A stretch of 41,384 bases of DNA from the IMG/VR virus record IMGVR_UViG_3300010885_004342, positions 1-41,384 of that record, one strand, 5' to 3'. The position numbers were made by a program, and so were the translations under genes. The stretch comes from a virus. The notes below the pieces were generated by a model, which had not been told where the DNA came from, ran no database searches, and was given only the letters and a program-made list of their open reading frames with translations. Positions 13,589 through 34,913 of the stretch are shown in pieces (the stretch's first letter is position 1; each line of letters begins with the position of its first letter).

Positions 13589-15753
13589 GCCAATACACCT
13601 GTATAAATGATATAATTAATGGTCAAGTAAGGATTCATTGAATTAGCTGGTTGACCTACTAACGGTGCATCAATATTTCCGCTGTGCGGAAGATAATGTG
13701 CCTGGTTAGCTTGGCTAGCGCCAAGATCTAATCTTGCATCTAAGTCAGTTGGAGTACCAGTAGCATTTCTATAAGCGTAATACTGCTGACCTGCGGTTCC
13801 GTCAGCTCTTCTTCCTCGCATATTATGTCTATGGTCTGGAAGGTTGCTTACTGATAATGTAATTGTTTCTGATCCAGTTCCTGCGCCTAATGTATCTGCT
13901 GCAACGTCAGTTACTCTATCAGCTGGGCCGCCGCCGGCATCTGTATATACTGCTGTACCAGTGCCGTTAGCCTCAGCTTCACCCGAAGCTTTTGTTTTAA
14001 TTTGTAATGGAAGATTTGATGCGGAATCCGTATTCTCCATGTTGTCTTTGCCTAATGGGAATCGACCTCTCAAATCTGGTAATGCAAAAGACTGATATCC
14101 CTTTAACAGTGAAAAATCTCTATAGGTGTAACCAATAATTGCAAACAGTTCTCCGTAGGTGCTTCTTGGAACTTCTGCACCATCGCACAATAAAAATCCT
14201 TTTGGAACAACTGATCCAGCAAATGGCAAAATGCCGCCAACTGGAACTGTAGCAACTGAGCTAAAGAAAGTTTCTTTTGTTGTTTTTCTAATTCCAGTAC
14301 CTGGACGATAAATTAAAAACTGATCTGAATTTGTAGAATTTGTTATTTGTGTTTGTCTTGTAAAAAACGTTTCACTAATTACAGTATTAAAAGTGGCTGT
14401 TTGATTTTCTGTTACTCCGTTAAACACCAAAGGAGCTGCTGTAAGAACGTCTCCAGTAATATAAAATGAAGTTGAATCTAACAATTGTCTTGCATACTGT
14501 GAAGTAGTTCCAGAACCTAAAGAACCAGTAAAACTTCCAGTAAAATTACCAACAAAAGTTTTAGCATATACATTATTAAATTTCTTTGTTGAACTACCTA
14601 AATCATAAATGTCAGTAGTACTTGGTAACATTGCAACTAATGGAGTGGATCCTGTGCTGCTAGGAGTAATATTAATAGTCCCGTTAATAGTAGTATCACT
14701 GCCTACTATTAATTTTTTAGTAACTACTGCGCCGCCTGCTGTAACTAAACTTGCAGCATAAGATCCAACAGATCCAGATGCTTCTAATGTTCCAGTAATA
14801 GAAATTTTACCGTCTGTGGCTATATTTCCACTGACATCTAATGCTTCTGTTGGGTTAGTTTTATTAATACCAACAGTTTTTGTACTGTCTACTCTAATAA
14901 CTGTAGCAGTAGTTCCAGAATTATTAACATTTAAATCAATGCTTGATCCTGCAACTGAATTATAAATTACGCCAGCATTGCCATCAACTTGTAGAGATAA
15001 TCGTAAATCACTACCTACAGTTAAACCACCGTCATTTTTAACATAAAGATTATAGTTACTAGTACTTGTTTGATCGCCTCTTAAGAAATTTACAGAAGCA
15101 ACGTCAACGCCATTAACAATTAATGAATTAGCTTTATCAGCTGTTCCCCAAAATTTGTAAGTACTAGAAGAAGATAAAGTAACACCTTGCTTAATAGCTG
15201 TAAATCCAGATACTGTTCCCTTAGGAGTAAACGTACTTTTACTAAAAATTGCTATACGCTCGTTGGCTACATAGCAACTAAGAACTGAATATGGTACGTC
15301 TAATAAATCTGTAATAGTTTCAACTTCAAATCCAGTTTTTGATCCTGCGCTATATTGAGGACCAACTAAAATCCATGAAGAGCCTGTCCAGACTTTAAGT
15401 TGTTGATTTTCTGTATCAACCCATAGATCGCCAATTGTTTTATACACCGGAGCTGTAGCGTTTTTCTTAACACCACCAGTTTCTGTCCATACACTACCGT
15501 CCCATACTTGGAGCTGACTTACGCCTGGACTATTGTTAAACCATATCTGGCCTTCTACTGGATTTAATGGCTCTGTGCTATTAGCAAAATTTTCTAGTAG
15601 GTGTAAAAAGTTTTCTGCAATATACGCAGCATAACCTGCATAATTTTTACCAACAAATGTTAAACTAGTTTCTGTATTAAGTGATTGATCTTCAACAACT
15701 TTGGCAGTTTTTGTTGGATTATTAGTTTCTGTAAATCTAACTGTATAACTCAT
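13585..15753 (-). CDS. tail fibre-like protein 3 with phage tail-collar domain
   Basis: A 722-residue fibre-like protein. It has the shared N-terminal domain (SLTFVGKNYAGYAAYIAENF, HLLENFANSTEPLNPVEGQI, GDLWVDTENQQLKVW), then a shaft region with repeated strand motifs (LGSSTKKFNNVYAKTFVGNF). The C-terminal third carries a phage tail-collar domain (about 497-575): GGILPFAGSVVPKGFLLCDG, then LPDLRGRFPLGKDN. After it comes LSVSNLPDHRHNMRGRR, typical of the receptor-proximal end of short tail fibres such as T4 gp12 and similar proteins. It probably ends in the receptor-contact tip. The ribosome binding site AGGAG is 6 bases before the ATG. It is separated from the next upstream gene by one base. 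Confidence 0.9.
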   Translation of the reverse strand: MSYTVRFTETNNPTKTAKVVEDQSLNTETSLTFVGKNYAGYAAYIAENFLHLLENFANSTEPLNPVEGQIWFNNSPGVSQLQVWDGSVWTETGGVKKNATAPVYKTIGDLWVDTENQQLKVWTGSSWILVGPQYSAGSKTGFEVETITDLLDVPYSVLSCYVANERIAIFSKSTFTPKGTVSGFTAIKQGVTLSSSSTYKFWGTADKANSLIVNGVDVASVNFLRGDQTSTSNYNLYVKNDGGLTVGSDLRLSLQVDGNAGVIYNSVAGSSIDLNVNNSGTTATVIRVDSTKTVGINKTNPTEALDVSGNIATDGKISITGTLEASGSVGSYAASLVTAGGAVVTKKLIVGSDTTINGTINITPSSTGSTPLVAMLPSTTDIYDLGSSTKKFNNVYAKTFVGNFTGSFTGSLGSGTTSQYARQLLDSTSFYITGDVLTAAPLVFNGVTENQTATFNTVISETFFTRQTQITNSTNSDQFLIYRPGTGIRKTTKETFFSSVATVPVGGILPFAGSVVPKGFLLCDGAEVPRSTYGELFAIIGYTYRDFSLLKGYQSFALPDLRGRFPLGKDNMENTDSASNLPLQIKTKASGEAEANGTGTAVYTDAGGGPADRVTDVAADTLGAGTGSETITLSVSNLPDHRHNMRGRRADGTAGQQYYAYRNATGTPTDLDARLDLGASQANQAHYLPHSGNIDAPLVGQPANSMNPYLTINYIIYTGVLA

Positions 15754-17149: not shown

Positions 17150-20100
17150 TTATAGCTCCAAGGGGTTTCCGTTTTCGTCGGCTAAGATTTCGCCGTCCTG
17201 ATCAGTTATATTATTAATTAGTTCTAAATCAAATTTAATAAATTTAGAAATAGCATTGTTAGACTCTGCTAATGAAGATCCATTGTCTTCCCAAATTTTT
17301 CCAGTGCGTTTGATCACAGTAAGGGCAACATTTTCAGATATTAAATCAGTTAAATTGATAACATTTGACGAATTACTTACTGTAAAGTCAGCATCAAATG
17401 TTATATCCCCTTCAGGACTTTCATTATGCAGATAAGAATTATGTACTTCATAGGAATCTTTCTTTAATCGAATATTGCCAATAAAGAACTGCCAGCGAGG
17501 TTCTGCAATTCCAGTTATCTCGTCTACATATTCTAAATCTGCAAAGAACTCACTGCTAGTATGTGATGCTAGACACTTATAAGTATAACTTCCGTAGGTA
17601 ACGAGTTCGTTGACAAGATAAGTTATACCAGTTGCCCATGGTCCTTTAACTATCCAACCGCCAGCAAATACTTCTACTGCACTCTTTGGTAGTAATGCCG
17701 CATCTGTTGATGTTAAATTAGCACCCTTATATTTGTGTGCAGTAGTAAACCCGCCTGGGATTGCTGTCTCAAGAGTATAATTATAACTTGTGCCATCGGC
17801 AATTATCTGTTCAACTATTGTATCATCTTTATAAGGAATTGTTTCTGTTATTCCAATATCTTGAACAACTGTCCCGGCATTATATACTTCTCTAACACCA
17901 GTACCCAATGTACCTCTACGTAGTTGACTTAGTACGTTTCCAGTTTTTAAGAAATATTCAATACGTTCGCCTCGGATTTCAATAATCCCAGGAAGATTTA
18001 AATCTCTATTTGGCAGTGATACCACTCTGTCATCATTAATAACAATTTCAGTATCGTAAAAATGAAGATCATTTTTAAGAGTTGTCTGACGACTCTTTCT
18101 TAATCTCTTATAATGGAATCTGTTTAACATATCTTTAAATTGCATAAAGCTAAACGACTGTTGAACTACATTACTTCCAAATGTCATTACAGTGAATTTA
18201 TCTCCCTCAAGTGGTTCTTTAGCCAAGGTCACTGAAGACAAATTAGCATTTAATCTATAGTCAATACTAGATTGAAGTATGCGGCCATTCTTAATTAACC
18301 ATACTCTACTATCATTAACTACAGAACGATCAAGTTTAATTATTTTTCCAAAAGGTTGATGATAGGTATAGTACTCAAATGTATCTGGTGTTAATGTTGA
18401 ATTTACTAATACATTAATATCAGTTCTTTGAATTTCCATTGATTCGTGTTTATAAAAACTAATCACGTTAATTACAGTACCGTCTGCTGGCGCTTCAGCA
18501 AATGTAATTGAAGAACCGTCACATGTATATGTTGAATATCGATTTACACTGATAGTTAATTGATCGCCTTCGTACTCATGGTATGCACGATTTTTTAACT
18601 TTATTGAAATCTTTGATAAGTCAACTGTATAGTCAGATCCAATTTTTAACTTTTTATTATTAGCAAATACAGAAATTTGATTTACATCTGGTTCGTATGG
18701 TACAAATCTATTTTTAGGGATGTAGTATTCATACTGATCATTTTCAATAGTATAATATGTGCTAGTTGGTGATGTGTAGACTAGAGGTGCTGCATCATCT
18801 TCTGAAGAAGCATATACTAACATATTCTGTTCTAGCGGAAGAGAAGTTCCTACAACGTTTGATAGAAGATACGTTACACTATCTCCGTCAGCGGTAAATT
18901 TTTCAGATTTCATTAAGCTGAAGTTATCAACAGTAGACGATGCTAATACATAATTAATAATCGAATCTACTGGAGGTATAATTGCAAAGCGAATTCCAAC
19001 TAGTCCAACAATTTCGTAACTAGTGTCTGTTTCAAATAACTCATAGGAAACAGTTTCTCCGTTGAGATATATTAATCCGGATACTCCAGTTCCCCATGAT
19101 GCATTAGTTATGAATTCGTTACTAGTACCGTCAGATACAAAATAGTCTATTTCTAGTAAATTTGCTCCGCTGAATCCAAATGTAATTATTGAAATCATCG
19201 ATCCCACTGGTGGTTCAGTAATTAAAATCACTTGTTTATTTGCATAATCAACAGTAAAGTCTACATCAATAACCAATGGTTTAGGATCGTATCGAAGAGC
19301 ATTAGCTGTAGGCGTATCCTTTGCTGGACCTGAAACTAGAACCATTACTGCTTGTTTGTAGCTTAATGGTTGATCAAATGTAAAAGCAGTTGTAACACCG
19401 TCAAATACATAATTGTTATAATCAATATTTGCTGCACCGCTTGATGGTCTAGTTGTAACTTTAACTGCTACTGTGTCGACGATCTGTCCAGGAACAACTT
19501 CTTCTGGACCATGACTAGTGGTTGCATTAACAAACTCGTCACCGTCAATAATAATATCATCTGCTGCAAGACCAGTTGCTGTTGAATAAGCTAGGTTTCC
19601 GCCACTTAGCGAAGTATCATAATCAGTATCTTGTGGTTTAATTGACCCATCACTAGTTGACTTCCTAAAGATAAATGTATCGCCGGGATTAGGTGTTAAC
19701 AGTGTATCTGAAATAAGAATTTTCTTTGTAATTCCGTTACCAATAAATGTTGCAATGATCGTTGTAGTTGTAATTGGATTATCTGCATCGCCTGCATCTA
19801 ATGTTCCGTCAATTACATAAGCCGAATCACCACCTTCAATGATATCAAGGAAGTTTTCAGTTGAAGAAACTCCGCCGTCTTCAGTTATACTAACCGTTGT
19901 ATATGGAGTGCTGTCAATTCTAAAGAATCTTTCTGTACCAAATACTTTGTAGTAAACGTTAATTTCTTCTCCAACTGCTGGAGTGTACGGTAGCGTAAAT
20001 TCATAGTATCCGCTTACTGACTCGAGACCGCCAACTGTAATACTATAATCTTCATAAGTTGGATCTAGCGAGTCCCAAGCATCGGTAAACCAAGGAGTTG

Positions 20101-23100
20101 ATCCCCATCCTTGGGTTACTTCAAATCCTAGGCCTATTATCTGTACTCCGCCATAATCAACACCGTGCATTAATTGTGAAGTATCTTTTCCAATTTCTCC
20201 AGTAGCAGGATTGTAGTACCAATTAATTCTATCAGCAGCTGATAGGTAATTAAAATCTTTAATATAGGTAATTGTTACATCTACACCTTTATCTGGAGCA
20301 GTTTCTAATGTTAAAAGACCGTAATAACTAGTATATCCTCTTGTGACGGATTTTTTACTAGTCAAAGAATATGTGCCTTTAATTAATTCAATACCGTTAA
20401 CTGTAACAGTTGAGTTAAGAATATCTGTAGACGGACTCCATTTTAAATTAAATGTTTTTTGTGTAGCGGAAATCGTTGTAAACGTTTCTGTTTCTTGCAA
20501 TTTAGTAATATAATACTGTCCGCTTACTCTGTCAAATTTAATTTTTATGTAATTGGAACGAACAACACTGTCACCAATAGTTGCAATTGCTTTAGCAGCA
20601 ACACCGCCTTCTAAGGCCAAGCCGCCGTCTAAAGTTATTGTTGGAACGCTAAAATATCGTGAGCCAGGTGTTAGTAATACAATTCGATTTACTTTACCCT
20701 GAGAGATATAAGCCTTAGCGGTTGCACCAGTTCCGTATCCTCCGGTAATTCTAACTTCAGGAGCTTTTAAATATCCGCTGCCTCCGTCAATAATTGTAAT
20801 AGAAGTTAATTTAAATCCTGCATTGTCATACCAATTGCGCCAAGGATACTCATACACATCATCAAGATTAGTTAAAATTTCACCATCGACTAATGCTGTT
20901 TCAATTGGCATTAAAATATTATTTAGATAGGTGGTTTGTAAATCAAAGTCAGTGACCATATTGTATGCAGGATCTAACTTATCGTAAGAACTAACAAATT
21001 CTCTTATTTTTGTTCGATATGGCTTGACTTCGGTTACATACGATTCAAAATCTGACAAATTATCATTGTTATATGTTATTTTTTGTTTTAATTGTCCAAC
21101 ATTATGCTGTGCTCTCACAAAACTAGTTTTAAAGATCCAATCAATAAATGTTTGTTCTGAGAACGCATAGCGAACACACGCAAAAAATGCATCTAAGTAA
21201 TCTTGTTTTAAATCATCAATTAAAATTTTATTTCTTAGAGCAGTGAGAATAATTCTTACTTCTATAGCTGCGGTGTTATCATAAATGTCGCCGTCAAATA
21301 AAGGACCATCAAAACCTAAATTACTATTAAAGAAATTGTAAAGATTATCTTTAATTTGTATTGTTCCGTTTTCACGACCTATTACTTTATAAGATTGTGT
21401 ATAGTCAACTGAATTAACATCGGCATATTTTTCTAATAATAACCATCCTCCAGTTCCAACTGAGTTAACTTTAATAACTTGACCAATCTGTGTAGTAAGA
21501 GCTGGCAATTGATACGTTGCATCTACAGTAAAATCAATTAAGGTAAACTGATTATATCCAGACGCATACCAATTAGTATAACTCCAATATTTTCTTACAT
21601 CGTAGTTTTGAGATCTAACTCTTGACCATGCTCTTGTCACTGTGTCATAGGCGTATATACTCCATTGTCCAAGAGCATCTGTATCTGCTTTTACTAGCGC
21701 AGAGAAAGTTCTAATTGATAAAACAGTCGTAGACTCGTTATATCCTTCTCCGCTATTAAGTATAGTTGCACCTACAATTTGTCCGTTGTCGTTTAGTTTA
21801 GCTCTTAATTTTGCGCCAATGCCGGAACCAGTGACTGTAATATAAGGTGCATTAATATATCCTTGTCCAGACGTAACCACTGTTACAGAAGTAATACGTC
21901 CATTTTCAATAGTTGGTGTTAACTCGGCTGTTCTAAAAGTACTAGTACCAATAAATCTTAATTCAGCATCTGTATCAACTACTGTATCGTATAAGCCAGT
22001 AACTGTGCTTGGTTCGACTTCGTATTGGTCCAAATCAGAGATATCTCGATCTTCAACAATTGTATACTTAATCAACACCGAATTAATTCTTTCAATATAT
22101 TGTTTCAGTGCTTCAATTCGATTTATAAACATGCTTTGTCGAGGTCTATTTTCAATACCATATCGCATTTTTGGCGGTAATGAAAAATCTGGCACTACTC
22201 TACTGTTGCTGTCTTTACCACAAAGGCTATCAATCAACTTTTCTTCTATGCTAATTGGAAGGCTACTGTTAGGATCGTTGCTAATGATCTTCCATTGGCT
22301 ATGAGAATTGATACTGTAATCGTCTACAATCCAATATTCAATAGCTAGATTAATATCTGAATGTATTAAACTTTGTGAGATATTTGCTAGACTAAAACTA
22401 TTAGTACCAGTGAAGGCAATAAACTGTAGTCCTTGTCCTTTAGGATCTGCTATTAAGTCAGCAACATTTTTAGCAGAAAGATATCTATCAGTTACATTTG
22501 GCACAATAGTTTTATTCTTGACCCAGAAATAATATGTATTTTTAAAAGTCTTTGATACATTATCATATCGTCTCTTGATACTGTAAACACTATCGCCGTA
22601 CAAACTAATACCACTTATGTTAGAAGCTAATCCAGTTTCTGTATCAGCTAACTTATCCCAAGCACTTGGTAGAACAGATGATTCTACCCATTCATAGATA
22701 TCAATGCTAGCAGTGTCATATAATTTGTTCCATGTAGTGTTTCTATAAACTACATCTCCGTTATTGTAGTCAAGAAATTTTGCTCTACTCATATCCCACC
22801 ACAACATGCCTACTTTTTTATCAGTCCATGCCATGCCGTCATCTACATTAACTGAATCTGTTCCTACAGTATATGTTGCTGGGTCGTAGAATGTCTTAAA
22901 TTTAATTTCTTGTTCTGCAATACCGGCAATGTTACCTTGAAGCGGATCAATAATATCTAAGTAGGTCACAATTGTATTTGTTTTCTTATTATATAAAAAT
23001 ACTTTTTTAATTTTTTCTAAATTAACGACTGGTAGTTGTTCATGAGATCTAGTCCAAGAATATGCATTTGATTTTTTCTCAAAGGAATATACTTTTCCTG

Positions 23101-26100
23101 AAATAATACTTTGATCAACTGCGTTTGGAGCTGAGACAACAACTGTATTTTTCTTAACTGCAAATCCTGTACCAAAGCCGGCTTGAGGAATATCAAATGA
23201 TGCTAGGCTTTCAGAGAATACCCATTTAGAGTAGTACTTGTCATAAACATCTACTCTGCCAGAATCAATAACTTTGTCAAGAACCTTTAATGTATCTCCG
23301 TCAAATGTTGTTGGCAATCCTGACGGTGTTGAATATCCTACCTGATCAACGTCAAATGTTAAAATGTTAGAATTATCTCCGTTGACACTAAAAATTACCA
23401 GGGTGTCATCATTGTTCATAAAGGAAATTTTAGTTCCAAATTGTTCTGATATTTCCGGAATACGGCTCTTTAAAGTTTGATATGGGGTTGTTGAAAATAC
23501 TCCATTAGTTTGTTTAAAAACTTTAACAATACCTTGATCAGTAAATGTATCATCAGCATATCGACTGCTTACAGCAAGATAATGACCGTCACTAGATAAA
23601 GAAATACTTGAACCAAACTGTTCTGTATCATTAAGATCTAAACCTGTTAATGTCTGCGTTAAGCTATATGCGCTATTTGATAAAGAGTAAATGTATGTTG
23701 CACCAGTATCAAGCGATAGTGTAGAAGTATCTTTAGTTGGTGCTGATATTGCTAGATAAGTCCCGTCTGACGATGCTGTAACATCGTGACCGTATCTATC
23801 GTTAGCGGCAGAGCCAACAAGTACAATACTATTCATCGACCACTGATCTACTCCGTTAACTGTAGTGTAATCAAATTGATATACTCTACCTTTACTGCTG
23901 TCGTGCCCAGTTGCTGACACAAACATAGTAGTATTGGTGGAGAATACAATCTTTGAGCCAAACAATTCAGTAGTTGATAATGACGATTGAGTTGGAGAAA
24001 CAATATATGATTGTAAAATAAACTCGCCGGCAGCATTTTTCTTATAAAGAGTAATCATACCTTGTGAAGTGTAAGAACTTGCTACTCCGTTAACTGATGC
24101 CTTTATCGAAGGAGCAGGTCCCCAGAATGTTGAATTACTTGCTGGATTAGTGTTTACTGGAATTGTGCGCAATGCTATGTAGTAATTTCCATTATAACGA
24201 ACAACATCGTTTATCACATAAGTTGTCGTAGAATTACTCCATGTTCCTTTATATTGTGTCTTAACACTTGATGCAGTTGGTGTTCCTATTATTAACCAAG
24301 ATCCGTCTGGACTAAACTCTAATGATTCTCCAAATGCGCCTAGAGAGACAGTTGCTACATCAAGTAAAGTAACAGTTTGTTTTTGAACCCAATTAGCAGA
24401 GGCTGTAGCTTTTTCAAAAATTACAATTTGATTTCTAGTATTTGCAACTGCGGCTGTTAATGCTGATGCAGTTACCGCTATAGTTTTACCGAACGCTAAA
24501 CCAGCTGATGGTTTAGGATTTCTAATAATTTTTTCAGTATAGACATTACTATGGGCATAAACACTCCATTTGCCAGTGCCATTATCATCTACCCATATCA
24601 CTTCGTCTGTTTTTAATCTATTAGGAATTATTGAACTAATATTATCAATATGACTAGCACGTTGTGTAGTAATTTTAAATATCAATAATACACCAGGATC
24701 AACTGTATTTGGATCTGGAAAATCTTTAAATTCTTTATTAATTGTAATTGTAGTTAAATTAACAGATGAGACTTTATGAAACCCTTGAATACTTGTCTCG
24801 TGTAAAATTCCAATAATGTCGTTTGCTGATATGTTAGGAATTATATCTGTAGTCAATGTTAAAACTTTAGTTGTCTTATTATATGAAACAGTTTGAATAT
24901 TAAAAATAGATTTTGTTAGTCTGTAGATATTCCAGTCACGGCCTTCAAACGCACAGTGAATATACGATCCTTCTGAGAATTGCGTAATATCTTTAGAAAT
25001 AATTTCATCTAAAGTATCAATATTAATATCTACTTCATCTGTTTTTACATACCCGGGAGTTCGTAGATAAGGAGTAAAATTCTCGTTAACTGGCCACGGA
25101 GCAGAATTATAATTTAAAGGTTTTAGATAAACGTCATTAGGTGTTTGACGCACAACAAAATCAACACTATTGTTGATAGTTGATGAAACTAATTCGTACG
25201 GCTGAGGATTTAATTTAAACAAACTATCGTTTAATTCAAACTCAATTTGTTCAAATGCTTTTGAACTTCCGTATTGGCCAACACGAACTGCCCACTCTTC
25301 AAAGAACTTAATACTTTCTTTATTATCAGCACTTAGTACATCAAATAATTTGTTAAGAACATTCTGCGTACCCTTTTCAATAATCATACCTTGATAGAAT
25401 TTATATTCTGAAATATCGTCTTGAATGATATTCTCAAGGTACTGACGTTTCTGATAACCAATTAAATGCTGGGCCATTCTTTGTTGGCCAACATCAAAGT
25501 TGTCACTATCTAGGCTGTAGAAATCTTCAAATTGTGCTGCCTTGTAACTCCAATTTGGTATCATTCTTGAAGTAGGTTTTTCTTTTAATTTAATCCAATC
25601 GTTAGAATCAAATTCAAGTACGCCTGGTAAGAAGGCATTGGCACTATAATAAAATTCTTTGTATCTTACAACATCACCAAGATTGTAGTCAGTCCATGCC
25701 GCCCAATTTTTTATTAGAGCTTGGTCATATATAAATCCTGGAATGTCGAATCCGCCTTTCCAATTTGTAGAAATATATCCTGAAACTTTGATTTTTTCTT
25801 GACGATATCCAGTTGTTTGTTCGTAGATTGTATCATTAAACAATGTAGTGTTATCTATCAATAATATGTGTTCTTTTTGTACAAGATAGAAAGTAGCTCC
25901 ATAAATTCCTTCTGTGTTTGCTACAGTATATTCAATTGTATTATCATCTCTAAAAGAATTAATAAATTCAGGTTCTAATTTTTCGCCGTCTGCTTTAAAA
26001 AATTCATAACCGTTAAATTGATCGCGAATATCTTCTAAAACACAGTAAGGTAAATTTGCAATTAGACTTGTAGCCGCAGGACTTAATGCAATAACACTAG

Positions 26101-29100
26101 CGCCAATAGTCGAAAGCTCACCTAATTTATTGTACTGTTCTTCATTAAAAAACACCCCAGAGTTGATATTGTTTTTTACAACATAATAATCGCCGTTGTA
26201 CTGAAGTACTTCACCGCTAACATAATCTTGATTTTCTAACCAATCTGTCCACTTTGTTTCACCTGAGCTCCAGTTTTGTGTAGTCCAGAATAAAAATTCT
26301 TTAGCAGCAGTACGCCAGTCTGTTATTGTTGAAAGGTTATTGTTAAACTCGTCAAATTTAAACCCTTGATCTTTTAAGTATTCACCGTAACCCACTAAGA
26401 AATCAACAACTTCTTGTATTGTTCTAAATTTAGATCCGTAAGCAACTGTGATTAATTCTGTCTTATCCCATCCAGTTCTAATATAAGCATCTCGGCCACC
26501 GACGATAGGAAGTGCTGGTAACTTTTGATAAAAAGTAGAATCAAATGATGACGAAGTAGTATGAGTAACTGTTACTCGATAATATCCACTGTTATATTTT
26601 ACTAGCTTGCCGGAAACATATTGTTGACCAGATTCCCATTCTGAATATGTTTCACTTATTCCGCCAACATTAACTAGATATCCCGCTTGTATCCAAGGGT
26701 AGTAATAGAAATAAGGAGAATTTTTACTATAACCTTTTACTTCATAACCAGTTGATAGTTTAGTAATAATTACACCGCTATATACTAACTTTTTCACCGG
26801 TGAGCTAGTGTTCAATACAATTGAGTAGTTTTCTTGAGGTACAAATACACCTCCAGAGGCTGTTGGATTTTTAGAATCAAGTATTAGATTAAATTTTTCT
26901 TTTTCAGTGAATCCGCCAATTCTGTAGGCTAGTTGTAGGTTTAAATTTTGTAAGTCGTATTTGTATTGTGTAAGTGATTTTAAATTGTCACTCTGAATAT
27001 AGTCAATTAAGTAATTTACAAGACCCGATGTTTGTACTCTAGTATCATCAGAATAAATGTTAGGTAGTACTGCATCTGCTAAACGGAATCTAACTTTTGT
27101 ATCTTTATAAACAATCTGACCAGAAAGATCTCTATAAATTCTTGAACGATCAAATATTCTTCCTACTATAGCTGAAGGGTAAGTTAATAGTAAAGTAGAA
27201 ATTACTGCAAATGGGAAGTACGAACTTCTTCTCCATGCGGCTTCTACTGGGCTTCCGTCACCAAATACAAAATCTCCTCTAGAACTAGGAGTAATTAGGC
27301 CGTCGGCAACATTTGATTCAATTGGAGTTCTTAATAGTCCATCACTGGTAACTGGAATACAGCCTAACAAAAATGGTCTTAAATATTTTGTATTTCTAAA
27401 AATTGGTGCATTTGGATCTCTAACTACACCTTCACTAATATCTTGCCACATTACTAGATTATCACTAGTATATGGTGCTGGTCCGTACTGCTCTTCCCAC
27501 CATGCAGGCATGATGCTAAATCCTAACATTTCCCAAGGACATAGATGAGGTCTATCAGTATCATATATCCACTTGTATATTGCTCTCCAATAGCCCGGAG
27601 TTTCTCTACCATCAGGTGCAGTATGACCTGTATAGTTATATGTAAATGGATCTAGTTTATTGTAGGTCAGCGGTTTAGTAAAATCTCTATCAACTAAATT
27701 AGTCCATTGATAAAAATTTGGTGATAAGATTTCGTTAAATTCTTGTAATGAATATTCACTATTAGAAACGTAGCGAGGAATGTAGTCGTTAATATCAAAT
27801 AAACTAGTGTCGTAGTTAAATTTAATATTGTTAAAAATTCTTAATTCTAATTCTAATAATAATTCGTCTCTGTAATCTGGTGTGCCACCTTCGTCGTATG
27901 TGCCATAAGCTAGTACATGACTGCCGTCGTGTCCTTGGATCATCCAACGACCATTAGGAATGTTTACAGTTGTATCAAGATAAATTTTAGGTTGATACTT
28001 TGGCCATAATCCTAATTTTGTAGGTGTAGAGGGAATAAAACATCCGTCTGTTGTTTCGTATTCAACAATAGTAATTGTATCGTCATTAGCTAGGTTGGAA
28101 TAGTTAATAATAGCAAATCCGTTACCATCAAATGTATAATCAATGCCATAACTTAATTGTAAACCGTTAACATAAATTAGCACCGCTTTTGGACTTAATT
28201 CTCCGATATTAAAATTACTTGATAATGGATAATACTTTGTTCGATAATCAACAACAGTAATGTTAGTTGTTACTGCTGCTCCATAGGGAACCATATCGCT
28301 AAAATAATACGGGAATGTTTTTGGTTTATTCTTATTAATTTCATTAAGGATTGCATCAACAAATTCAACTGTATCAACATCAATGCCTAATGTTTCTGCT
28401 GTTAAAATAAATTGTCTTTTAAACTTTCCGTAGTCATTTTGCGATTGTGTCAATGCTTTAATAAAGTTGTTATCTTTAGAAGTTAAATGATATAATGCTA
28501 ACGGCAATGCACCGCTATGTTGAACAAATTTTGTTCCGTATGGATTAACATTGCCAAGATCTCTAATATTACTTGTGCCTGGGAAATCCCCAGAGAACAA
28601 AGATAAATTATCAATTATTGAATCAACATGATCTACTACTTCACCTAATGTAAATTGAGATACTTCGTTGTTTAATGGATTATTTTGAAGATTTAACGGT
28701 ATTTCATAATACCCAACACTATTTTTAGATTGTCGCGCAAACGATTTGATGGTTAGTACATCAGTTTCAGTAATATCATTAACTAGTGTAACTACCTTGT
28801 AAAGATTGCCATCAGCTACTGACCACAATGACTTATCTAAACGGCGGCCGTTGACATACACTCGAACAACTAAATCACTAAGATCTGTTATATCATCGTA
28901 TACGTCAATGTTAAAATTGTTTGTCTTATTTGAACCTCTATAAATTCTTATGATTGGTTGGTAATTTTCAACTTTACTAATTTCCCAAGCATTAGTATAT
29001 GCTACACTTGAGATTCCGTTAGACTTAATTAATGATCCTGTATTAACAGAAATTGTATTAACATCGTAGATAGTTTTATAAGTGAATGTATCTGATAACA

Positions 29101-30955
29101 GATTAAAATTAAAAAGAATATCTCCTACATTATTGATATTCTTGTAATCAAGAGCAAATCCTAATTCCGAGTCTGCGCTGCCATCGCCAATAGAATAAGA
29201 AAATAATTTAGTCCCAGCGAAAGTTGAGCCTTCATAAACTGTTTTGTCTCCAAAACTATTAAATGTATCATCAACTAAATCAAATAAAGGAGTTTGATTG
29301 TTAGTTGTTTTTGTTTGTCCTAGCAGCCATTCGCTGCCGTTATACCAATACATTAAACCTTGTTTTAGTCTTCCGTATTTTATTAGTGCAGTTTGATGTT
29401 CAACTGGAGTAGATTCTTCTACTAAATGAATCTGGCGTTGACGACTCTCGCCTGGCGGAGTTACTTCGACAAATTCAACTCTATATATTTTGTTTCGAAC
29501 ACGAATATCGGTGTCAGCAGCAAATGCTACACGATGACCGTTTACTAACGAAACTGCATCAATAGCATAGCTAAGTTGACCTTCTACCTCACTAAATGCA
29601 TCAGTTGTAACTGTATCAAGTAAATCAATATCAACTATAGCTTCTAATCCAAAATTAAATAATTTTAATCCAGCTTCAAATTCTATGATTGGTCGAATTG
29701 CACGGGCTGTTTGATCTAAGCTGGCTATTTCTCCGTTTAAAGTTGCACTAGTTTCTATAACATCCTTATGGAACCAACGATTATATCGACTCCACGGATT
29801 GCGATCTTTGCTGGCACGATTAATAACAATGTAATCATTGTTCTTAGGATACGAACTAGCTACTTCAAATGAATTGCTTTCAAAAGGAGTGTCATCAAAT
29901 AAGATTTCAACTGTACTAGAAAAATTGCTAATAATTTCAAGATCTCTCTCAGCAATAAGAGAAATTGCAGAACCAACACCCTCGACATAAAAATAATCAT
30001 TGGCATATTTAGAGGGTGTAACTTCACCTCTAAATTTTACTTTCATACCGTTAGATAAAGAAATTCCATTACCTAATTTATAACTTTTTTTACCAATTAT
30101 TTCTAACTCAACATCAATTTCAGTATTATCTTTTATGTCATAAATTTTAAAAATATTACCAATGTTTGCATCATTTTCACTAACATAGTAAAGCAAGTTT
30201 GGAGCATCATCAGGCACAGTGAAAGTTAAAGTTCCACTTTCTATTGCATACGCAGTATCTGGTCCCCAAGTATATCGTTGGTCTGGCCCTTCAACTTTCT
30301 GTGTCTTGATACTAAACGGTTCTCCAAGGCTATTAATATCAAAGTGATATGTTTGTCCTCTGTATAATTTAATTACAGGATTACGTGTAAGCCCGTTTGG
30401 AGTAAACAAATATTCTTTACTATTGCCCTGATCTTCTATAGTTACAGTATATGTACTAGAAATAGCTCTTTCTTGTCCGTAAACTTCAATGGGTCTAGGA
30501 CCGTAAGGTAGCCAATAGTATTGCTGGAAGTTAACAAACTTATCCCAATCAATATGAGGGTTCCAAGAATAAAATTCTTGACGGTTTAGTCTTTCATGGT
30601 TATCTACCTTTGCACCAAACACACCTAGCTGATTAATATAGTCAATGTAATCTTTATAAAATTCTACGTTTCCTAAATCGTCACTGACTACTAGGCCGGG
30701 CTCTAGTTGATAATTTTTTCTAGTGTCGTCAACAGTTGATATAAAAATATCTTTAGAAGTTGAGGACTTTGCATTTTGGCGCCCAATATAACCGTTGATC
30801 TTTTTAACAACTCCGGGTTGTGTTAATTGATCAATAGTTGCTTGAATAAATTTTTTATTACTATCAGTTCTATAAAATCTAGGGATTAGATCAGAATTTC
30901 GTCTCTTCTGGTCTCCGCCTTTGTATGGAACTGGATTTTCTTTCTGGTTCGCCAT
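17150..30955 (-). CDS. giant 4601-residue tail/baseplate structural protein
   Basis: An uninterrupted 13.8-kb gene, about a third of the window. Its ATG follows the gp6 stop directly (TAAATG), with GGAG upstream inside gp6, so it is in the baseplate operon at the place of T4 gene 7. T4 gp7 is only about 1030 residues, and I cannot show homology. Visible parts: an N-terminal region rich in W, Y and P (about 1-170); core segments such as HLCPWEMLGFSIMPAWWEEQ near residue 1140; five chitin-binding-like modules anchored by W1440, W1572, W1754, W2239 and W4440; a seven-repeat FG-GAP-like propeller (F2155 to about 2630); two pairs of GGxGY-type repeats (around Y3033 and Y3395); many VNGxxL-x(2)-DYT fibre repeats in the last 1100 residues; and a segment near 4290-4360 (FYDTEIVINDD, then GIIEIRGERIEYF) frequent in phage structural proteins. 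A virion role is near certain; polysaccharide contact is inference. Confidence 0.95.
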   Translation of the reverse strand: MANQKENPVPYKGGDQKRRNSDLIPRFYRTDSNKKFIQATIDQLTQPGVVKKINGYIGRQNAKSSTSKDIFISTVDDTRKNYQLEPGLVVSDDLGNVEFYKDYIDYINQLGVFGAKVDNHERLNRQEFYSWNPHIDWDKFVNFQQYYWLPYGPRPIEVYGQERAISSTYTVTIEDQGNSKEYLFTPNGLTRNPVIKLYRGQTYHFDINSLGEPFSIKTQKVEGPDQRYTWGPDTAYAIESGTLTFTVPDDAPNLLYYVSENDANIGNIFKIYDIKDNTEIDVELEIIGKKSYKLGNGISLSNGMKVKFRGEVTPSKYANDYFYVEGVGSAISLIAERDLEIISNFSSTVEILFDDTPFESNSFEVASSYPKNNDYIVINRASKDRNPWSRYNRWFHKDVIETSATLNGEIASLDQTARAIRPIIEFEAGLKLFNFGLEAIVDIDLLDTVTTDAFSEVEGQLSYAIDAVSLVNGHRVAFAADTDIRVRNKIYRVEFVEVTPPGESRQRQIHLVEESTPVEHQTALIKYGRLKQGLMYWYNGSEWLLGQTKTTNNQTPLFDLVDDTFNSFGDKTVYEGSTFAGTKLFSYSIGDGSADSELGFALDYKNINNVGDILFNFNLLSDTFTYKTIYDVNTISVNTGSLIKSNGISSVAYTNAWEISKVENYQPIIRIYRGSNKTNNFNIDVYDDITDLSDLVVRVYVNGRRLDKSLWSVADGNLYKVVTLVNDITETDVLTIKSFARQSKNSVGYYEIPLNLQNNPLNNEVSQFTLGEVVDHVDSIIDNLSLFSGDFPGTSNIRDLGNVNPYGTKFVQHSGALPLALYHLTSKDNNFIKALTQSQNDYGKFKRQFILTAETLGIDVDTVEFVDAILNEINKNKPKTFPYYFSDMVPYGAAVTTNITVVDYRTKYYPLSSNFNIGELSPKAVLIYVNGLQLSYGIDYTFDGNGFAIINYSNLANDDTITIVEYETTDGCFIPSTPTKLGLWPKYQPKIYLDTTVNIPNGRWMIQGHDGSHVLAYGTYDEGGTPDYRDELLLELELRIFNNIKFNYDTSLFDINDYIPRYVSNSEYSLQEFNEILSPNFYQWTNLVDRDFTKPLTYNKLDPFTYNYTGHTAPDGRETPGYWRAIYKWIYDTDRPHLCPWEMLGFSIMPAWWEEQYGPAPYTSDNLVMWQDISEGVVRDPNAPIFRNTKYLRPFLLGCIPVTSDGLLRTPIESNVADGLITPSSRGDFVFGDGSPVEAAWRRSSYFPFAVISTLLLTYPSAIVGRIFDRSRIYRDLSGQIVYKDTKVRFRLADAVLPNIYSDDTRVQTSGLVNYLIDYIQSDNLKSLTQYKYDLQNLNLQLAYRIGGFTEKEKFNLILDSKNPTASGGVFVPQENYSIVLNTSSPVKKLVYSGVIITKLSTGYEVKGYSKNSPYFYYYPWIQAGYLVNVGGISETYSEWESGQQYVSGKLVKYNSGYYRVTVTHTTSSSFDSTFYQKLPALPIVGGRDAYIRTGWDKTELITVAYGSKFRTIQEVVDFLVGYGEYLKDQGFKFDEFNNNLSTITDWRTAAKEFLFWTTQNWSSGETKWTDWLENQDYVSGEVLQYNGDYYVVKNNINSGVFFNEEQYNKLGELSTIGASVIALSPAATSLIANLPYCVLEDIRDQFNGYEFFKADGEKLEPEFINSFRDDNTIEYTVANTEGIYGATFYLVQKEHILLIDNTTLFNDTIYEQTTGYRQEKIKVSGYISTNWKGGFDIPGFIYDQALIKNWAAWTDYNLGDVVRYKEFYYSANAFLPGVLEFDSNDWIKLKEKPTSRMIPNWSYKAAQFEDFYSLDSDNFDVGQQRMAQHLIGYQKRQYLENIIQDDISEYKFYQGMIIEKGTQNVLNKLFDVLSADNKESIKFFEEWAVRVGQYGSSKAFEQIEFELNDSLFKLNPQPYELVSSTINNSVDFVVRQTPNDVYLKPLNYNSAPWPVNENFTPYLRTPGYVKTDEVDINIDTLDEIISKDITQFSEGSYIHCAFEGRDWNIYRLTKSIFNIQTVSYNKTTKVLTLTTDIIPNISANDIIGILHETSIQGFHKVSSVNLTTITINKEFKDFPDPNTVDPGVLLIFKITTQRASHIDNISSIIPNRLKTDEVIWVDDNGTGKWSVYAHSNVYTEKIIRNPKPSAGLAFGKTIAVTASALTAAVANTRNQIVIFEKATASANWVQKQTVTLLDVATVSLGAFGESLEFSPDGSWLIIGTPTASSVKTQYKGTWSNSTTTYVINDVVRYNGNYYIALRTIPVNTNPASNSTFWGPAPSIKASVNGVASSYTSQGMITLYKKNAAGEFILQSYIVSPTQSSLSTTELFGSKIVFSTNTTMFVSATGHDSSKGRVYQFDYTTVNGVDQWSMNSIVLVGSAANDRYGHDVTASSDGTYLAISAPTKDTSTLSLDTGATYIYSLSNSAYSLTQTLTGLDLNDTEQFGSSISLSSDGHYLAVSSRYADDTFTDQGIVKVFKQTNGVFSTTPYQTLKSRIPEISEQFGTKISFMNNDDTLVIFSVNGDNSNILTFDVDQVGYSTPSGLPTTFDGDTLKVLDKVIDSGRVDVYDKYYSKWVFSESLASFDIPQAGFGTGFAVKKNTVVVSAPNAVDQSIISGKVYSFEKKSNAYSWTRSHEQLPVVNLEKIKKVFLYNKKTNTIVTYLDIIDPLQGNIAGIAEQEIKFKTFYDPATYTVGTDSVNVDDGMAWTDKKVGMLWWDMSRAKFLDYNNGDVVYRNTTWNKLYDTASIDIYEWVESSVLPSAWDKLADTETGLASNISGISLYGDSVYSIKRRYDNVSKTFKNTYYFWVKNKTIVPNVTDRYLSAKNVADLIADPKGQGLQFIAFTGTNSFSLANISQSLIHSDINLAIEYWIVDDYSINSHSQWKIISNDPNSSLPISIEEKLIDSLCGKDSNSRVVPDFSLPPKMRYGIENRPRQSMFINRIEALKQYIERINSVLIKYTIVEDRDISDLDQYEVEPSTVTGLYDTVVDTDAELRFIGTSTFRTAELTPTIENGRITSVTVVTSGQGYINAPYITVTGSGIGAKLRAKLNDNGQIVGATILNSGEGYNESTTVLSIRTFSALVKADTDALGQWSIYAYDTVTRAWSRVRSQNYDVRKYWSYTNWYASGYNQFTLIDFTVDATYQLPALTTQIGQVIKVNSVGTGGWLLLEKYADVNSVDYTQSYKVIGRENGTIQIKDNLYNFFNSNLGFDGPLFDGDIYDNTAAIEVRIILTALRNKILIDDLKQDYLDAFFACVRYAFSEQTFIDWIFKTSFVRAQHNVGQLKQKITYNNDNLSDFESYVTEVKPYRTKIREFVSSYDKLDPAYNMVTDFDLQTTYLNNILMPIETALVDGEILTNLDDVYEYPWRNWYDNAGFKLTSITIIDGGSGYLKAPEVRITGGYGTGATAKAYISQGKVNRIVLLTPGSRYFSVPTITLDGGLALEGGVAAKAIATIGDSVVRSNYIKIKFDRVSGQYYITKLQETETFTTISATQKTFNLKWSPSTDILNSTVTVNGIELIKGTYSLTSKKSVTRGYTSYYGLLTLETAPDKGVDVTITYIKDFNYLSAADRINWYYNPATGEIGKDTSQLMHGVDYGGVQIIGLGFEVTQGWGSTPWFTDAWDSLDPTYEDYSITVGGLESVSGYYEFTLPYTPAVGEEINVYYKVFGTERFFRIDSTPYTTVSITEDGGVSSTENFLDIIEGGDSAYVIDGTLDAGDADNPITTTTIIATFIGNGITKKILISDTLLTPNPGDTFIFRKSTSDGSIKPQDTDYDTSLSGGNLAYSTATGLAADDIIIDGDEFVNATTSHGPEEVVPGQIVDTVAVKVTTRPSSGAANIDYNNYVFDGVTTAFTFDQPLSYKQAVMVLVSGPAKDTPTANALRYDPKPLVIDVDFTVDYANKQVILITEPPVGSMISIITFGFSGANLLEIDYFVSDGTSNEFITNASWGTGVSGLIYLNGETVSYELFETDTSYEIVGLVGIRFAIIPPVDSIINYVLASSTVDNFSLMKSEKFTADGDSVTYLLSNVVGTSLPLEQNMLVYASSEDDAAPLVYTSPTSTYYTIENDQYEYYIPKNRFVPYEPDVNQISVFANNKKLKIGSDYTVDLSKISIKLKNRAYHEYEGDQLTISVNRYSTYTCDGSSITFAEAPADGTVINVISFYKHESMEIQRTDINVLVNSTLTPDTFEYYTYHQPFGKIIKLDRSVVNDSRVWLIKNGRILQSSIDYRLNANLSSVTLAKEPLEGDKFTVMTFGSNVVQQSFSFMQFKDMLNRFHYKRLRKSRQTTLKNDLHFYDTEIVINDDRVVSLPNRDLNLPGIIEIRGERIEYFLKTGNVLSQLRRGTLGTGVREVYNAGTVVQDIGITETIPYKDDTIVEQIIADGTSYNYTLETAIPGGFTTAHKYKGANLTSTDAALLPKSAVEVFAGGWIVKGPWATGITYLVNELVTYGSYTYKCLASHTSSEFFADLEYVDEITGIAEPRWQFFIGNIRLKKDSYEVHNSYLHNESPEGDITFDADFTVSNSSNVINLTDLISENVALTVIKRTGKIWEDNGSSLAESNNAISKFIKFDLELINNITDQDGEILADENGNPLEL
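23020..24500 (-). other. FG-GAP-like beta-propeller region in the giant protein
   Basis: Seven copies of an FG- or YG-led strand motif occur at residues 2155, 2208, 2332, 2388, 2447, 2506 and 2594. Examples are FGESLEFSPDGSWLIIGTP, YGHDVTASSDGTYLAISAP and FGSSISLSSDGHYLAVSSR; most are followed by a GxVYxF-type strand. This is the pattern of FG-GAP/integrin-alpha-type blades and the count of seven fits a closed propeller. The interval between blades two and three is about 70 residues longer and holds a chitin-binding-like module (W2239). Confidence 0.7.
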
Positions 30956-33900
30956 TTAAACTCCGCTTGATGAACTGGTGATACTTTGCTGTGTTAGTGC
31001 AGTCACTGGAATAGTAGCATTGCCAACAGTTTTAATACTGCTTGATGTAATGCCGTTTATAATTTCTATGTCGTCCACTGATGCTCCATTGATAAACAAT
31101 TGATCGGATTCAGATTTGATTTCAAATAAACTACCAAAGTTTAATCCGCTGGCCCTAGGTACTATAACAAAATTTGTAATTAGGGGCGATAAATTATTCA
31201 TCACATAAGTTGATAATTCTGAGAAATAAAATGTATCGCCAAAATCCCAATTTTCTAAGGAAAAGAATTCGTTTATAGAAACAAGAACTCTAGATTTAAT
31301 TTCGTTATCACTAGCTACTTGTGCTTGATTCTTAGTCACTCTGAATACTGCTTGTACATCAGTAGAAGCTTCAGATCCAAATAAAACTTTATATTTTACT
31401 GGGTGGTAAATTATCTCATCGCTTATAGATTTTATTAAATTTAAACTTGGTGATAACGATAAAAATAATGCATCAGAACTTGGAGGCAGAGGTTCATAGG
31501 TTCTACTACCCGATAACCATTGTCTAAACTGAATATCATAATTTTTAGTTAATACATATACATCCATTATGTTGCTAACACTTGGGTCAATTCTTGTTTC
31601 ATAATCTGCACTATGCACATATTGAAATTTAAGATAAGGTCTTCCTTGATATACTTTATAATTTAAAGATGCATTTAAATTGCCACGTAATAAGTCTAAT
31701 TGTTTTACTACATCAGCATCAATAAAATAAAAATATTGGCCGTCTGTATAGTTTAGTAAACTACCGGTAGCAGTTTCTGAAGATAAAATTATTACAGTAT
31801 TAGTACTGTTATCAAGGTACCTATAATCTTCTTGCCCTGGTTCAATTGTGTATTTTTCAAGTACAATGTATCGATCTTTGTAGTCAATTAATGAGTTAGT
31901 TGGGTCAACTAAATTTTTAAATATTTCAGGATTATCAACTATGCCGTCGTCATTGTCGTCAGCAAATGTAATCTCAATTTTTTTAGTATCTTTATATCCG
32001 TCAAGGCCTTTAAAATCTGACGAAATTTCCCAAGGAATATCCACTGTAAACGGTATTGTATCGTTAGGCACAGTGTTGATGTTTAATACATTAATTTTAT
32101 CTTTAACAATTAAATTTGTTCTACTATCATATATTTTATTAGTAGCGTCAAAATAAAATCTTACTTTTTTATCGCTTTCAAATACATATCTTAATAGACG
32201 TGTTGTTACAGTATAATACTCATTGTCAGTCGTGAATAATACTAACCAACTAGAGTCTAATTGTTGATTAGTAAAATCGCCAGCTTTACCGTTATTCCAG
32301 TCGCTAGTTTGATTTAAATTTGTTTCAAATATAATCTTCCATGTTCTAGTACCAACAGAATCATAACGTAGACCAAATGGTTTATTTGAAAATATCAAAT
32401 CAATCATTGTAGATATTGTACCAGTTTCTAACGTAGCTCTCCACTTTGGAATAATCTGTGCTAATTCAGCAGATGAAGGGATTGGGATGCTTAAAGTAAC
32501 TGGGCCAAGGCCGGTAGATAATAATCCAGTACCCCCAGCTGTGCCATCACCACTAACGCCAACTACCGTTGCCCATAGTACATCAGTGGTATTTAAATTA
32601 TTAATAGAAGTCAGCTCATTGTTATTATCTTTGTTGAAATAAAAACCTGAAGGCGAATTAAATTTTATTAGTGATCCAATTTCAACATACTTTAAAGTTG
32701 TAACAACATAGCTGCCTATCTTCTTTAGATCAGCTGCATCTAATTTTGAATAAAAATAGCCAGTACTTTCGTTAGTATCTTTAGTTTGCTGGCGCCAGTT
32801 GATGTTTTGTCCTACTGTAGGAATAATATCAAACTTATCGTAATAATAATCTCTTAGACTATTTTTCTTTAAAATATCTAAAATTTGATTATAAATTATT
32901 CCTTCTATATCAGTGCGTGTAACAAAATTAAATCTAAAATCTTCTGTATATTCTTGCTTGTAAATTATACCATCATCGGCAAATAAATTTGTAGAGCTAT
33001 ATTTTCCTGTAGGATCTACTAGATCAAAATATCTGCTAATACCGCTTGAACTTCTATTAACCGCTTTTACTTTTGCAACATCTTGACTAACTGCTAGCGG
33101 ACTGATATTATAGTCTTCTCCAGTAATCATTCTATTTTGTGTGTAGTATGTTTGCGGGGCTTTAGTTTTAATATCTGTATTAGATTCTGTTTCAGAACTA
33201 TTTGAAACAGAAGTTTGTAATCCAAGAGTAATAGTTAATGTTTCTAACTGTCCTACATTAGACACATAAGGAATATCAATTGAAACACCCTTGATGTCTT
33301 TAGGATTAATAGTATAGGTAAGTCCATTGCTTATACGATAGTAAGTTCTAAAAGTACCTAATGGTAGATTTCCAAAAGTGCCGTCGCTGAACACTAGGCT
33401 AATTCTATCGCCTGCTCTAGTTACAACTCCGTATATATTCTTAATATTTTTGCTAAGGCTATTGTAAATGATGTTGTTGCCTTCAAAGCTAGGAACTTTG
33501 GCCCATTGCTCTGATTCTAATCCATTCTTATCTAAACGATATAACCATACATCTGTATCATTAATGTTTACTGCATCAATATCAATGCTCTCATTACTAT
33601 TGGGTTGTGTAATAGTAAATGATCCTTGATTTAATGAACCTTGTCGGAAATGTAGGAAAAATCCAGAAGAAGGGCTTGCTGCACCTTTTCCGTCATCTCG
33701 ATATAAAAATGCTAGATGATTACCTACTGTAGGTGTTTCTTCGTAGATGTAGTCTTGATCTTTAAAGACTGTTGACACTATTTCAAAACTCATAGTTCTG
33801 CCGTCAATTGGTTTTGAAAATGCATATACTGGAACATCAGTATTGCTTGATTGAAAACGATATTGTTCAGTTGGTATTCCAGCAATCGTTGCTTTGTCGT

Positions 33901-34420
33901 CAGGATTTCCAAATTGACGTGCTTGTGGCAGTGCAGAATTTATTATTTTAATAAATTGCTCATACCAATTTGAGTTAGCTGGATCATTCCATACCACAGT
34001 TTGACTTGATAAATTTCTACCGTTGCTATCTAAAACATTCTGTGTTGTTGAAACGCTAGAAAATTTTAAAAGACCGTTACCAGTTTGATTACGCTTTACG
34101 TTATAACTTAGTAGGCGAGCAAGGCGTAATACTGATTCTCTTCGTTCGGCCAGTTCTAAGAAATTTTCACGGGCATTTAAATCAACGCGGAAAGCTATGC
34201 TTTGGCCCAAGAACGCAATAAGGTCAATTAGGGCAAGGTATTCGCTAGATTCAATATAATCGTTGTAGTCTTCAGGATAGTTTTGACGAATGTAGGTAAT
34301 CATAGTCCTACGAAGATTCTCAAAATCGTAACTCTGGAAGTCAGCATTACGGAAAGATTGATATACTTTCTTCCAATCTTCTGCTACTAATAATCTGTTT
34401 TGTCTATCTGTTGATGACAT
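30956..34420 (-). CDS. 6: baseplate wedge protein gp6
   Basis: A 1154-residue wedge protein that forms the ring joining baseplate wedges. The N-terminus is characteristic of the gp6 / J-like baseplate family: AEDWKKVYQSFRNADFQSYD, then YPEDYNDYIESSEYLALIDL and SIAFRVDLNARENFLELAERR. The later half includes an ITGEDYNISPL segment also typical of the family. It is much longer than T4 gp6 (about 660 residues), as in marine relatives. It follows gp25 after a 46-base gap with a consensus late promoter and an AGGAA ribosome binding site, and its stop abuts the giant protein's start, consistent with assembly of wedge parts from one transcript. Confidence 0.9.
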   Translation of the reverse strand: MSSTDRQNRLLVAEDWKKVYQSFRNADFQSYDFENLRRTMITYIRQNYPEDYNDYIESSEYLALIDLIAFLGQSIAFRVDLNARENFLELAERRESVLRLARLLSYNVKRNQTGNGLLKFSSVSTTQNVLDSNGRNLSSQTVVWNDPANSNWYEQFIKIINSALPQARQFGNPDDKATIAGIPTEQYRFQSSNTDVPVYAFSKPIDGRTMSFEIVSTVFKDQDYIYEETPTVGNHLAFLYRDDGKGAASPSSGFFLHFRQGSLNQGSFTITQPNSNESIDIDAVNINDTDVWLYRLDKNGLESEQWAKVPSFEGNNIIYNSLSKNIKNIYGVVTRAGDRISLVFSDGTFGNLPLGTFRTYYRISNGLTYTINPKDIKGVSIDIPYVSNVGQLETLTITLGLQTSVSNSSETESNTDIKTKAPQTYYTQNRMITGEDYNISPLAVSQDVAKVKAVNRSSSGISRYFDLVDPTGKYSSTNLFADDGIIYKQEYTEDFRFNFVTRTDIEGIIYNQILDILKKNSLRDYYYDKFDIIPTVGQNINWRQQTKDTNESTGYFYSKLDAADLKKIGSYVVTTLKYVEIGSLIKFNSPSGFYFNKDNNNELTSINNLNTTDVLWATVVGVSGDGTAGGTGLLSTGLGPVTLSIPIPSSAELAQIIPKWRATLETGTISTMIDLIFSNKPFGLRYDSVGTRTWKIIFETNLNQTSDWNNGKAGDFTNQQLDSSWLVLFTTDNEYYTVTTRLLRYVFESDKKVRFYFDATNKIYDSRTNLIVKDKINVLNINTVPNDTIPFTVDIPWEISSDFKGLDGYKDTKKIEITFADDNDDGIVDNPEIFKNLVDPTNSLIDYKDRYIVLEKYTIEPGQEDYRYLDNSTNTVIILSSETATGSLLNYTDGQYFYFIDADVVKQLDLLRGNLNASLNYKVYQGRPYLKFQYVHSADYETRIDPSVSNIMDVYVLTKNYDIQFRQWLSGSRTYEPLPPSSDALFLSLSPSLNLIKSISDEIIYHPVKYKVLFGSEASTDVQAVFRVTKNQAQVASDNEIKSRVLVSINEFFSLENWDFGDTFYFSELSTYVMNNLSPLITNFVIVPRASGLNFGSLFEIKSESDQLFINGASVDDIEIINGITSSSIKTVGNATIPVTALTQQSITSSSSGV

Positions 34421-34466: not shown

Positions 34467-34913
34467 TTATTGTGCAAGCAGTCCATTCTTTTGATCAAAT
34501 GTCAACTGCATACTCTGACTAATGTTATACGGCAAATATGTTAAAATACATTCAATTTGAATACCTGATTCGTATGCAGTAACTATAACTTGATCTACTT
34601 TTACTCTAGGATCATAGTTAATAATATCTGTGACATTTTTAGTAATCACTTGCTTAATATCTTCAGTTAACGGTTCAAATAATATATCCCAAATAATTGT
34701 GCCAAACTCTGGATTCATTAGACGTTCGCCCTGACGGACATGGAAATGATTTAATATATCTTGTTTAATTAATTCTAAATCATACAGGCTAAAATTTTCA
34801 GTACTTTGATTTATTGTACTAAAACCTTTGTATGTTTTACTTCTAGGAACATCGGTATTTCTTATAGGAGGGGTTAATACAATTTTGTCGTATAAATTAG
34901 AGTTTGTAGTCAT
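34467..34913 (-). CDS. 25: baseplate wedge protein gp25
   Basis: A 148-residue member of the GPW/gp25 family, the small lysozyme-like fold that anchors sheath initiation and wedge core in T4, Mu-type tails and type VI secretion. The family signature is clear: LIKQDILNHFHVRQGERLMN then PEFGTIIWDILFEPL (about 48-83), with a C-terminal beta hairpin. T4 gp25 is 132 residues. The start shares one base with the gp5 stop (TAATG). No lytic activity is implied by the family name. Confidence 0.95.
   Translation of the reverse strand: MTTNSNLYDKIVLTPPIRNTDVPRSKTYKGFSTINQSTENFSLYDLELIKQDILNHFHVRQGERLMNPEFGTIIWDILFEPLTEDIKQVITKNVTDIINYDPRVKVDQVIVTAYESGIQIECILTYLPYNISQSMQLTFDQKNGLLAQ

Follow-up and report, generated by a model that had tools for sequence, protein, structure and literature searches.

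A seven-bladed integrin-type beta-propeller in a slot of a giant baseplate-type phage protein

Introduction

The stretch of viral DNA analysed here (IMG/VR record IMGVR_UViG_3300010885_004342, positions 1 to 41,384; hereafter the window, 41,384 nucleotides) encodes a giant structural protein, and an earlier note based on its letters alone pointed to seven FG-GAP-like repeats inside it. Do these repeats form a propeller like that of integrin alpha chains, how is the domain distributed among related phages, and what might it do on a virion? The note knew of no described role for such propellers in a phage baseplate. This was too strong for beta-propellers in general, because the phi11/80alpha receptor-binding protein and phiKZ gp131C contain them. 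According to passages of PMC7048315 and PMC6115969, the former is a trimeric protein with a five-bladed propeller, for which a role in host binding (GlcNAc) was proposed in phi11, and the latter, located peripherally on the tail, has a seven-bladed one. These are likewise beta-propellers in phage tail or baseplate proteins; in those passages, unlike the domain studied here, they are not described as FG-GAP repeats or as insertions into a giant protein encoded next to gp6. For the FG-GAP type, we found no report of such a propeller in a phage baseplate in the open-licence literature.

Results

The genes that define the locus are as follows.

34467..34913, minus strand: gp25-like baseplate wedge protein (phrog_261 and phrog_43)
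30956..34420, minus strand: gp6-like baseplate wedge protein (phrog_10646 and phrog_219)
17150..30955, minus strand: giant virion/baseplate-type structural protein, 4601 aa (open reading frame; PHROG 10938, 1083 bits; jumbo-phage relatives)

The gene order is gp25-like, gp6-like, giant protein, and the giant gene directly follows the gp6-like gene. The order gp25-gp6-giant or gp6-giant was also found in PA5oct, Atu_ph07, RaK2 and Phosso, and in the PA5oct record the orthologue of the giant protein is annotated with ESI-MS/MS. The position next to gp6 and the match to PHROG 10938 agree with the assignment of the repeats to a giant baseplate-type protein. VrlC was reported in place of T4 gp7 in the baseplate module of cyano- and pelagimyophages (PMC7029224); its gene position is comparable to that of the window protein, and we liken the two by position alone. 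When segments of the giant protein were aligned with T4 gp7 using hhalign, the probability was at most 0.4% for all of them; this comparison is weak because the control, the gp6 family against T4 gp6, was itself marginal (20.5%, E 0.0011).

Pfam analysis of the whole 4601 aa detected FG-GAP_2 and CBM_5_12 only. The CBM_5_12-type stretches number four, the best being at residues 4440-4467. Residues 3010-3107 and 3382-3472 are repeats, the latter of the GYxxxPxVxIxGGxGxGA type, and several copies occur in the giant protein of Synechococcus phage S-MbCM6. Residues 3379-3530 match PHROG 460, which is labelled head closure Hc2. The AlphaFold2 model of residues 1100-1990 was poor (pLDDT 63.8, pTM 0.38) and had no match in the PDB at E 0.001 or better.

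The FG-GAP assignment by Pfam came out as the earlier note had anticipated: FG-GAP_2 (PF14312) matched with 39.3 bits against a cut-off of 23 (E 7.6e-10), and three stretches passed individually. FG-GAP_3 (PF13517) did not match, and a sequence search of the PDB gave a chance match only. The seven repeat starts given in the note (F2155, F2208, F2332, Y2388, F2447, F2506 and F2594) were exact, and each is followed by G. Its location of the domain, 23020-24500, was also correct but slightly short, the domain spanning approximately 23030-24547. The proposed consensus, FGxxxxxxxDGxxLxVxxP, fits blades 2, 4 and 5 best, whereas DG is missing in blades 1, 3, 6 and 7. The parts of the domain are listed below.

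23030..24547, minus strand: seven-bladed FG-GAP_2/integrin-type beta-propeller, residues 2137-2642 (Pfam, AlphaFold2, Foldseek, VIA)
24524..24601, minus strand: scaffold hairpin WVDDNGTGKWSVY and closing strand, residues 2119-2144, left edge of the insertion (secondary structure; motif)
24341..24499, minus strand: blade 1, residues 2153-2205, FG at 2155 (AlphaFold2 model; repeat start)
23969..24340, minus strand: blade 2, residues 2206-2329, FG at 2208, with a long B-C loop insert (AlphaFold2 model; repeat start)
24062..24280, minus strand: blade 2 B-C loop insert, residues 2226-2298 (model and comparison with relatives)
23801..23968, minus strand: blade 3, residues 2330-2385, FG at 2332, main insertion hot spot in relatives (AlphaFold2 model)
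23624..23800, minus strand: blade 4, residues 2386-2444, YG at 2388 (AlphaFold2 model; repeat start)
23447..23623, minus strand: blade 5, residues 2445-2503, FG at 2447 (AlphaFold2 model; repeat start)
23183..23446, minus strand: blade 6, residues 2504-2591, FG at 2506, with an extra B-C hairpin carrying a TTFD motif (AlphaFold2 model)
23030..23182, minus strand: blade 7, residues 2592-2642, FG at 2594 (AlphaFold2 model; repeat start)

The closing strand starts around residues 2137-2140, and blade 7 extends to around 2642. The GxVWxD...W-V motif of the scaffold hairpin was seen by eye in PA5oct too.

The structure of residues 1976-2700 was predicted by AlphaFold2 from an alignment of 80 sequences, comprising the window protein together with homologues found in viral contigs. 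The model (pLDDT 89.4, pTM 0.87) contained seven four-stranded repeats as assigned by DSSP; the B-C loop of blade 2 bears an insert of approximately 70 aa, and blade 6 has an additional hairpin. The top Foldseek match of the propeller model was integrin alpha (E 2e-12). In VIA-align, integrin-alpha headpieces aligned with Z 36.4 over 354 residues at 3.1 A, covering model residues 162-655 of 662. Integrins made up all 50 of the 50 matches listed, and they were aligned from their first residue to approximately residue 450, including the N-terminal closing strand. The end-to-end alignment suggests that the modelled ring would be closed by the N-terminal strand in the last blade, so that structure prediction bears out the seven-blade ring of the earlier note, with closure as a feature of the model. 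The region almost certainly forms an FG-GAP_2 propeller of the integrin-alpha fold, with seven blades and a closed ring.

The domain resembles integrin alpha (PDB 5e6s, 9ef2) in its seven FG-type blades, its topology and its N-terminal closing strand. In contrast, sequence identity is 12-16%, and the phage domain lies inside a structural protein, has no DxDxDG motif and is not followed by leg domains, none of which was detected by Pfam across the 4601 aa. The DxDxDG calcium motif occurs nowhere in residues 1976-2700 of the window protein and is present in 5 of the 80 aligned sequences. Integrin-like calcium binding by the propeller was accordingly rejected, because these loops are absent from the window domain. 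As in the FG-GAP_2 repeat proteins of Pfam, the domain scores above the curated cut-off; unlike them, it is a single seven-repeat ring with large loop inserts in a 4601-aa baseplate-type scaffold.

Identity to relatives was mostly 35-40% in the propeller, compared with 55-70% for most of the protein next to it. Measured against the window protein, inserts of 20 aa or more were concentrated in blade 3 (56 of the 80 members) and blade 2 (17/80); they were found in nine members in blade 1, eight in blade 4, nine in blade 6, three in blade 7 and none in blade 5. The largest single insert was 191 aa. The blade 2 B-C insert of the window protein is missing in relatives or swapped for other inserts. 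Among close relatives, strand entropy was 1.08 in blade 6 and 1.77-2.31 in the other blades. In 61 more diverged members this advantage of blade 6 was largely gone, while the positions of the TTFD hairpin were still conserved. A regular expression for this hairpin was too strict (55/163). The conserved non-glycine positions include D2569, D2572, Y2574, E2582 and W2634.

The approximately 70-aa blade 2 insert looks CBM_5_12-like by eye.

The propeller is bordered by conserved parts of the giant protein, which define a slot.

25229..25561, minus strand: conserved left anchor, residues 1799-1909 (up to 90% identical among close relatives)
21956..23020, minus strand: conserved right flank of the slot, residues 2646-3000 (flank HMM and alignment)

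The right edge is well supported, as the HMM of the stretch adjoining the propeller matched Atu_ph07, PA5oct, SCTP-2 and RaK2 at 4e-18 to 6e-11. The left-edge HMM gave weak matches only in cultured jumbo phages, so the left boundary of the slot rests on the hairpin motif seen by eye. The left anchor gave no confident model when folded alone. The catalogued phages that match it are jumbo phages (e.g., RaK2, PA5oct and Atu_ph07), and the slot was read in four of them. In a fifth, Phosso, the propeller HMM found no ring.

A tblastn search with the propeller alone against phage records and viral contigs gave no matches; relatives were gathered via the conserved flanks and not via the propeller. 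The first census of slots left 26 without a propeller score, several of which had FG repeats on reading; 14 remained after iteration of the HMM. The propeller was thus present in 163 of 177 distinct slots and absent in 14, a proportion that reflects the best 80 matches per scan and is not a population frequency. The 14 non-carriers were RaK2, PA5oct, SCTP-2, Atu_ph07 and ten contigs. The four named phages share with the window protein homologous flanks and the gene position and differ in having no propeller in the slot. Slot contents in non-carriers ranged from 203 to 1529 aa (RaK2, 203; PA5oct, 316; SCTP-2, 504; Atu_ph07, 1529), and Pfam returned nothing convincing for these alternative contents. 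That of Salicola phage SCTP-2 (L172) looks concanavalin/LamG-type by eye and had no Pfam match. Four other slots (L213, L216, L152 and L087) are 1404-1585 aa, with propeller matches spread along long stretches; they perhaps hold long inserts or more than one ring.

A midpoint-rooted FastTree phylogeny of the flanks separated 161 carriers from the 14 non-carriers by one split (support 0.988), and none of the sampled members of the carrier clade had lost the propeller. The phage collection searched yielded no member of this clade. Because one split separates the two groups, a single gain or a single loss explains the distribution. The best explanation is one gain (or loss) of the propeller, at the point where the clade separates from the RaK2/PA5oct/Atu_ph07 side.

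A similar array was found in Synechococcus phage S-MbCM6 (ACG-2014c), in a 7022-aa structural protein (AIX22631.1) encoded after gp25 and gp6. Pfam detected in this protein an FG-GAP_2 array (E 1.8e-40), Laminin_G_3 and YHYH domains, and the array was also detected by our propeller HMM. Thus, the two proteins share the position after gp25/gp6 and the FG-GAP_2 array. Outside the propeller, in contrast, only the short repeats at residues 3010-3107 and 3382-3472 are common to both, and the slot-flank HMMs did not match the 7022-aa protein. For these two reasons the S-MbCM6 array was probably acquired independently. Most of the other cyanophages among the matches listed match only the stretch before the S-MbCM6 array.

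Three fibre-type genes lie downstream of the giant gene.

13585..15753, minus strand: fibre-type protein, Collar
11336..13588, minus strand: fibre-type protein, unknown beyond its N-terminal part
9793..11298, minus strand: fibre-type protein, Peptidase_G2

The encoded proteins have a related N-terminal part of approximately 190-260 aa (35-41% identity) and differ beyond it. From sequence, they may represent a common attachment module with different tips, and they are separate receptor-binding candidates.

Discussion

The fixed site of the propeller, its presence throughout the clade and its absence in the examined cultured jumbo relatives point to a probable exposed binding module at the tail tip. 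We tentatively prefer the reading that it is an adhesion module exposed on the baseplate or tail tip. The propeller sits in a hairpin of the giant protein of the gp25/gp6 baseplate operon, and in such a mechanism the disc would be anchored where its two ends join, near blades 7 and 1, presumably pointing outward from the tail tip. The far blades 1-4, with their changing inserts, could then bind sugars or proteins of the host surface with low affinity and so support adhesion once the separate fibres had attached. Adhesion is favoured by the fast change of the domain and by the inserts in blades 1-4; the four CBM_5_12 stretches of the giant protein and the precedent of the phi11 propeller also count for it. 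Against it, clade-wide retention fits a structural role equally well, and the low identity of the propeller could reflect relaxed constraint. Further, the conservation of blade 6 is marked in close relatives only, all blades having similar entropy in diverged members. The presence of separate fibres, the Collar and Peptidase_G2 proteins, implies that receptor binding need not fall to the propeller.

The propeller could instead serve as a docking platform for another virion protein, whether a fibre, a connector like gp9/gp10 or an adjacent wedge, and so contribute to building or triggering the baseplate. We consider this possible, if somewhat doubtful; adhesion and docking are close. Integrin propellers bind protein partners, and docking is favoured by retention in all carriers of the clade together with the strong conservation of blade 6 in close relatives and of the TTFD hairpin positions in diverged ones. 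The common N-terminal part of the three downstream fibre proteins fits as well. Yet the remainder of the domain has changed more quickly than the protein around it and accommodates long inserts, and phages on the RaK2/PA5oct side make baseplates without a propeller in the slot. The varied contents of the same slot in the 14 non-carriers would suit a neutral, rigid spacer with interchangeable contents that adds bulk to an enlarged baseplate and has no specific ligand. Such a filler is improbable, as the carrier clade includes no sampled loss and specific non-glycine positions are conserved. Propeller folds include enzymes in other families, and an enzymatic propeller that attacks the host envelope, e.g., as a glycan hydrolase or lyase, is conceivable; we regard it as very improbable, since the top structural matches are integrin alpha chains, which are non-enzymatic.

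On balance we cautiously suggest, short of an even chance, that an exchangeable slot received an integrin-type propeller a single time, that this propeller became a fixed, diversifying disc for adhesion or protein docking in a large uncultured clade, and that a cyanophage independently recruited the same kind of domain into another giant protein encoded at the equivalent place in the gene order. In a widespread uncultured phage group, these results place an integrin-type fold at what is probably the tip of the tail; they also identify a fixed cargo slot in a baseplate protein. The contents of this slot could explain how enlarged baseplates acquire new binding surfaces, and the slot provides a precise domain for expression and testing.

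Beside the fibre genes, the stretch 3959-8199 (minus strand) encodes two pairs of related proteins (3959/5026 and 6528/7357), which look glycosyltransferase-like by eye; glycosyltransferases have been reported from the host-recognition cluster of pelagimyophages (PMC7029224). The window also encodes a DUF2201 metallopeptidase/VWA-type protein (84-1277, plus strand) and a ThyX-type thymidylate synthase (3315-3998, plus strand).
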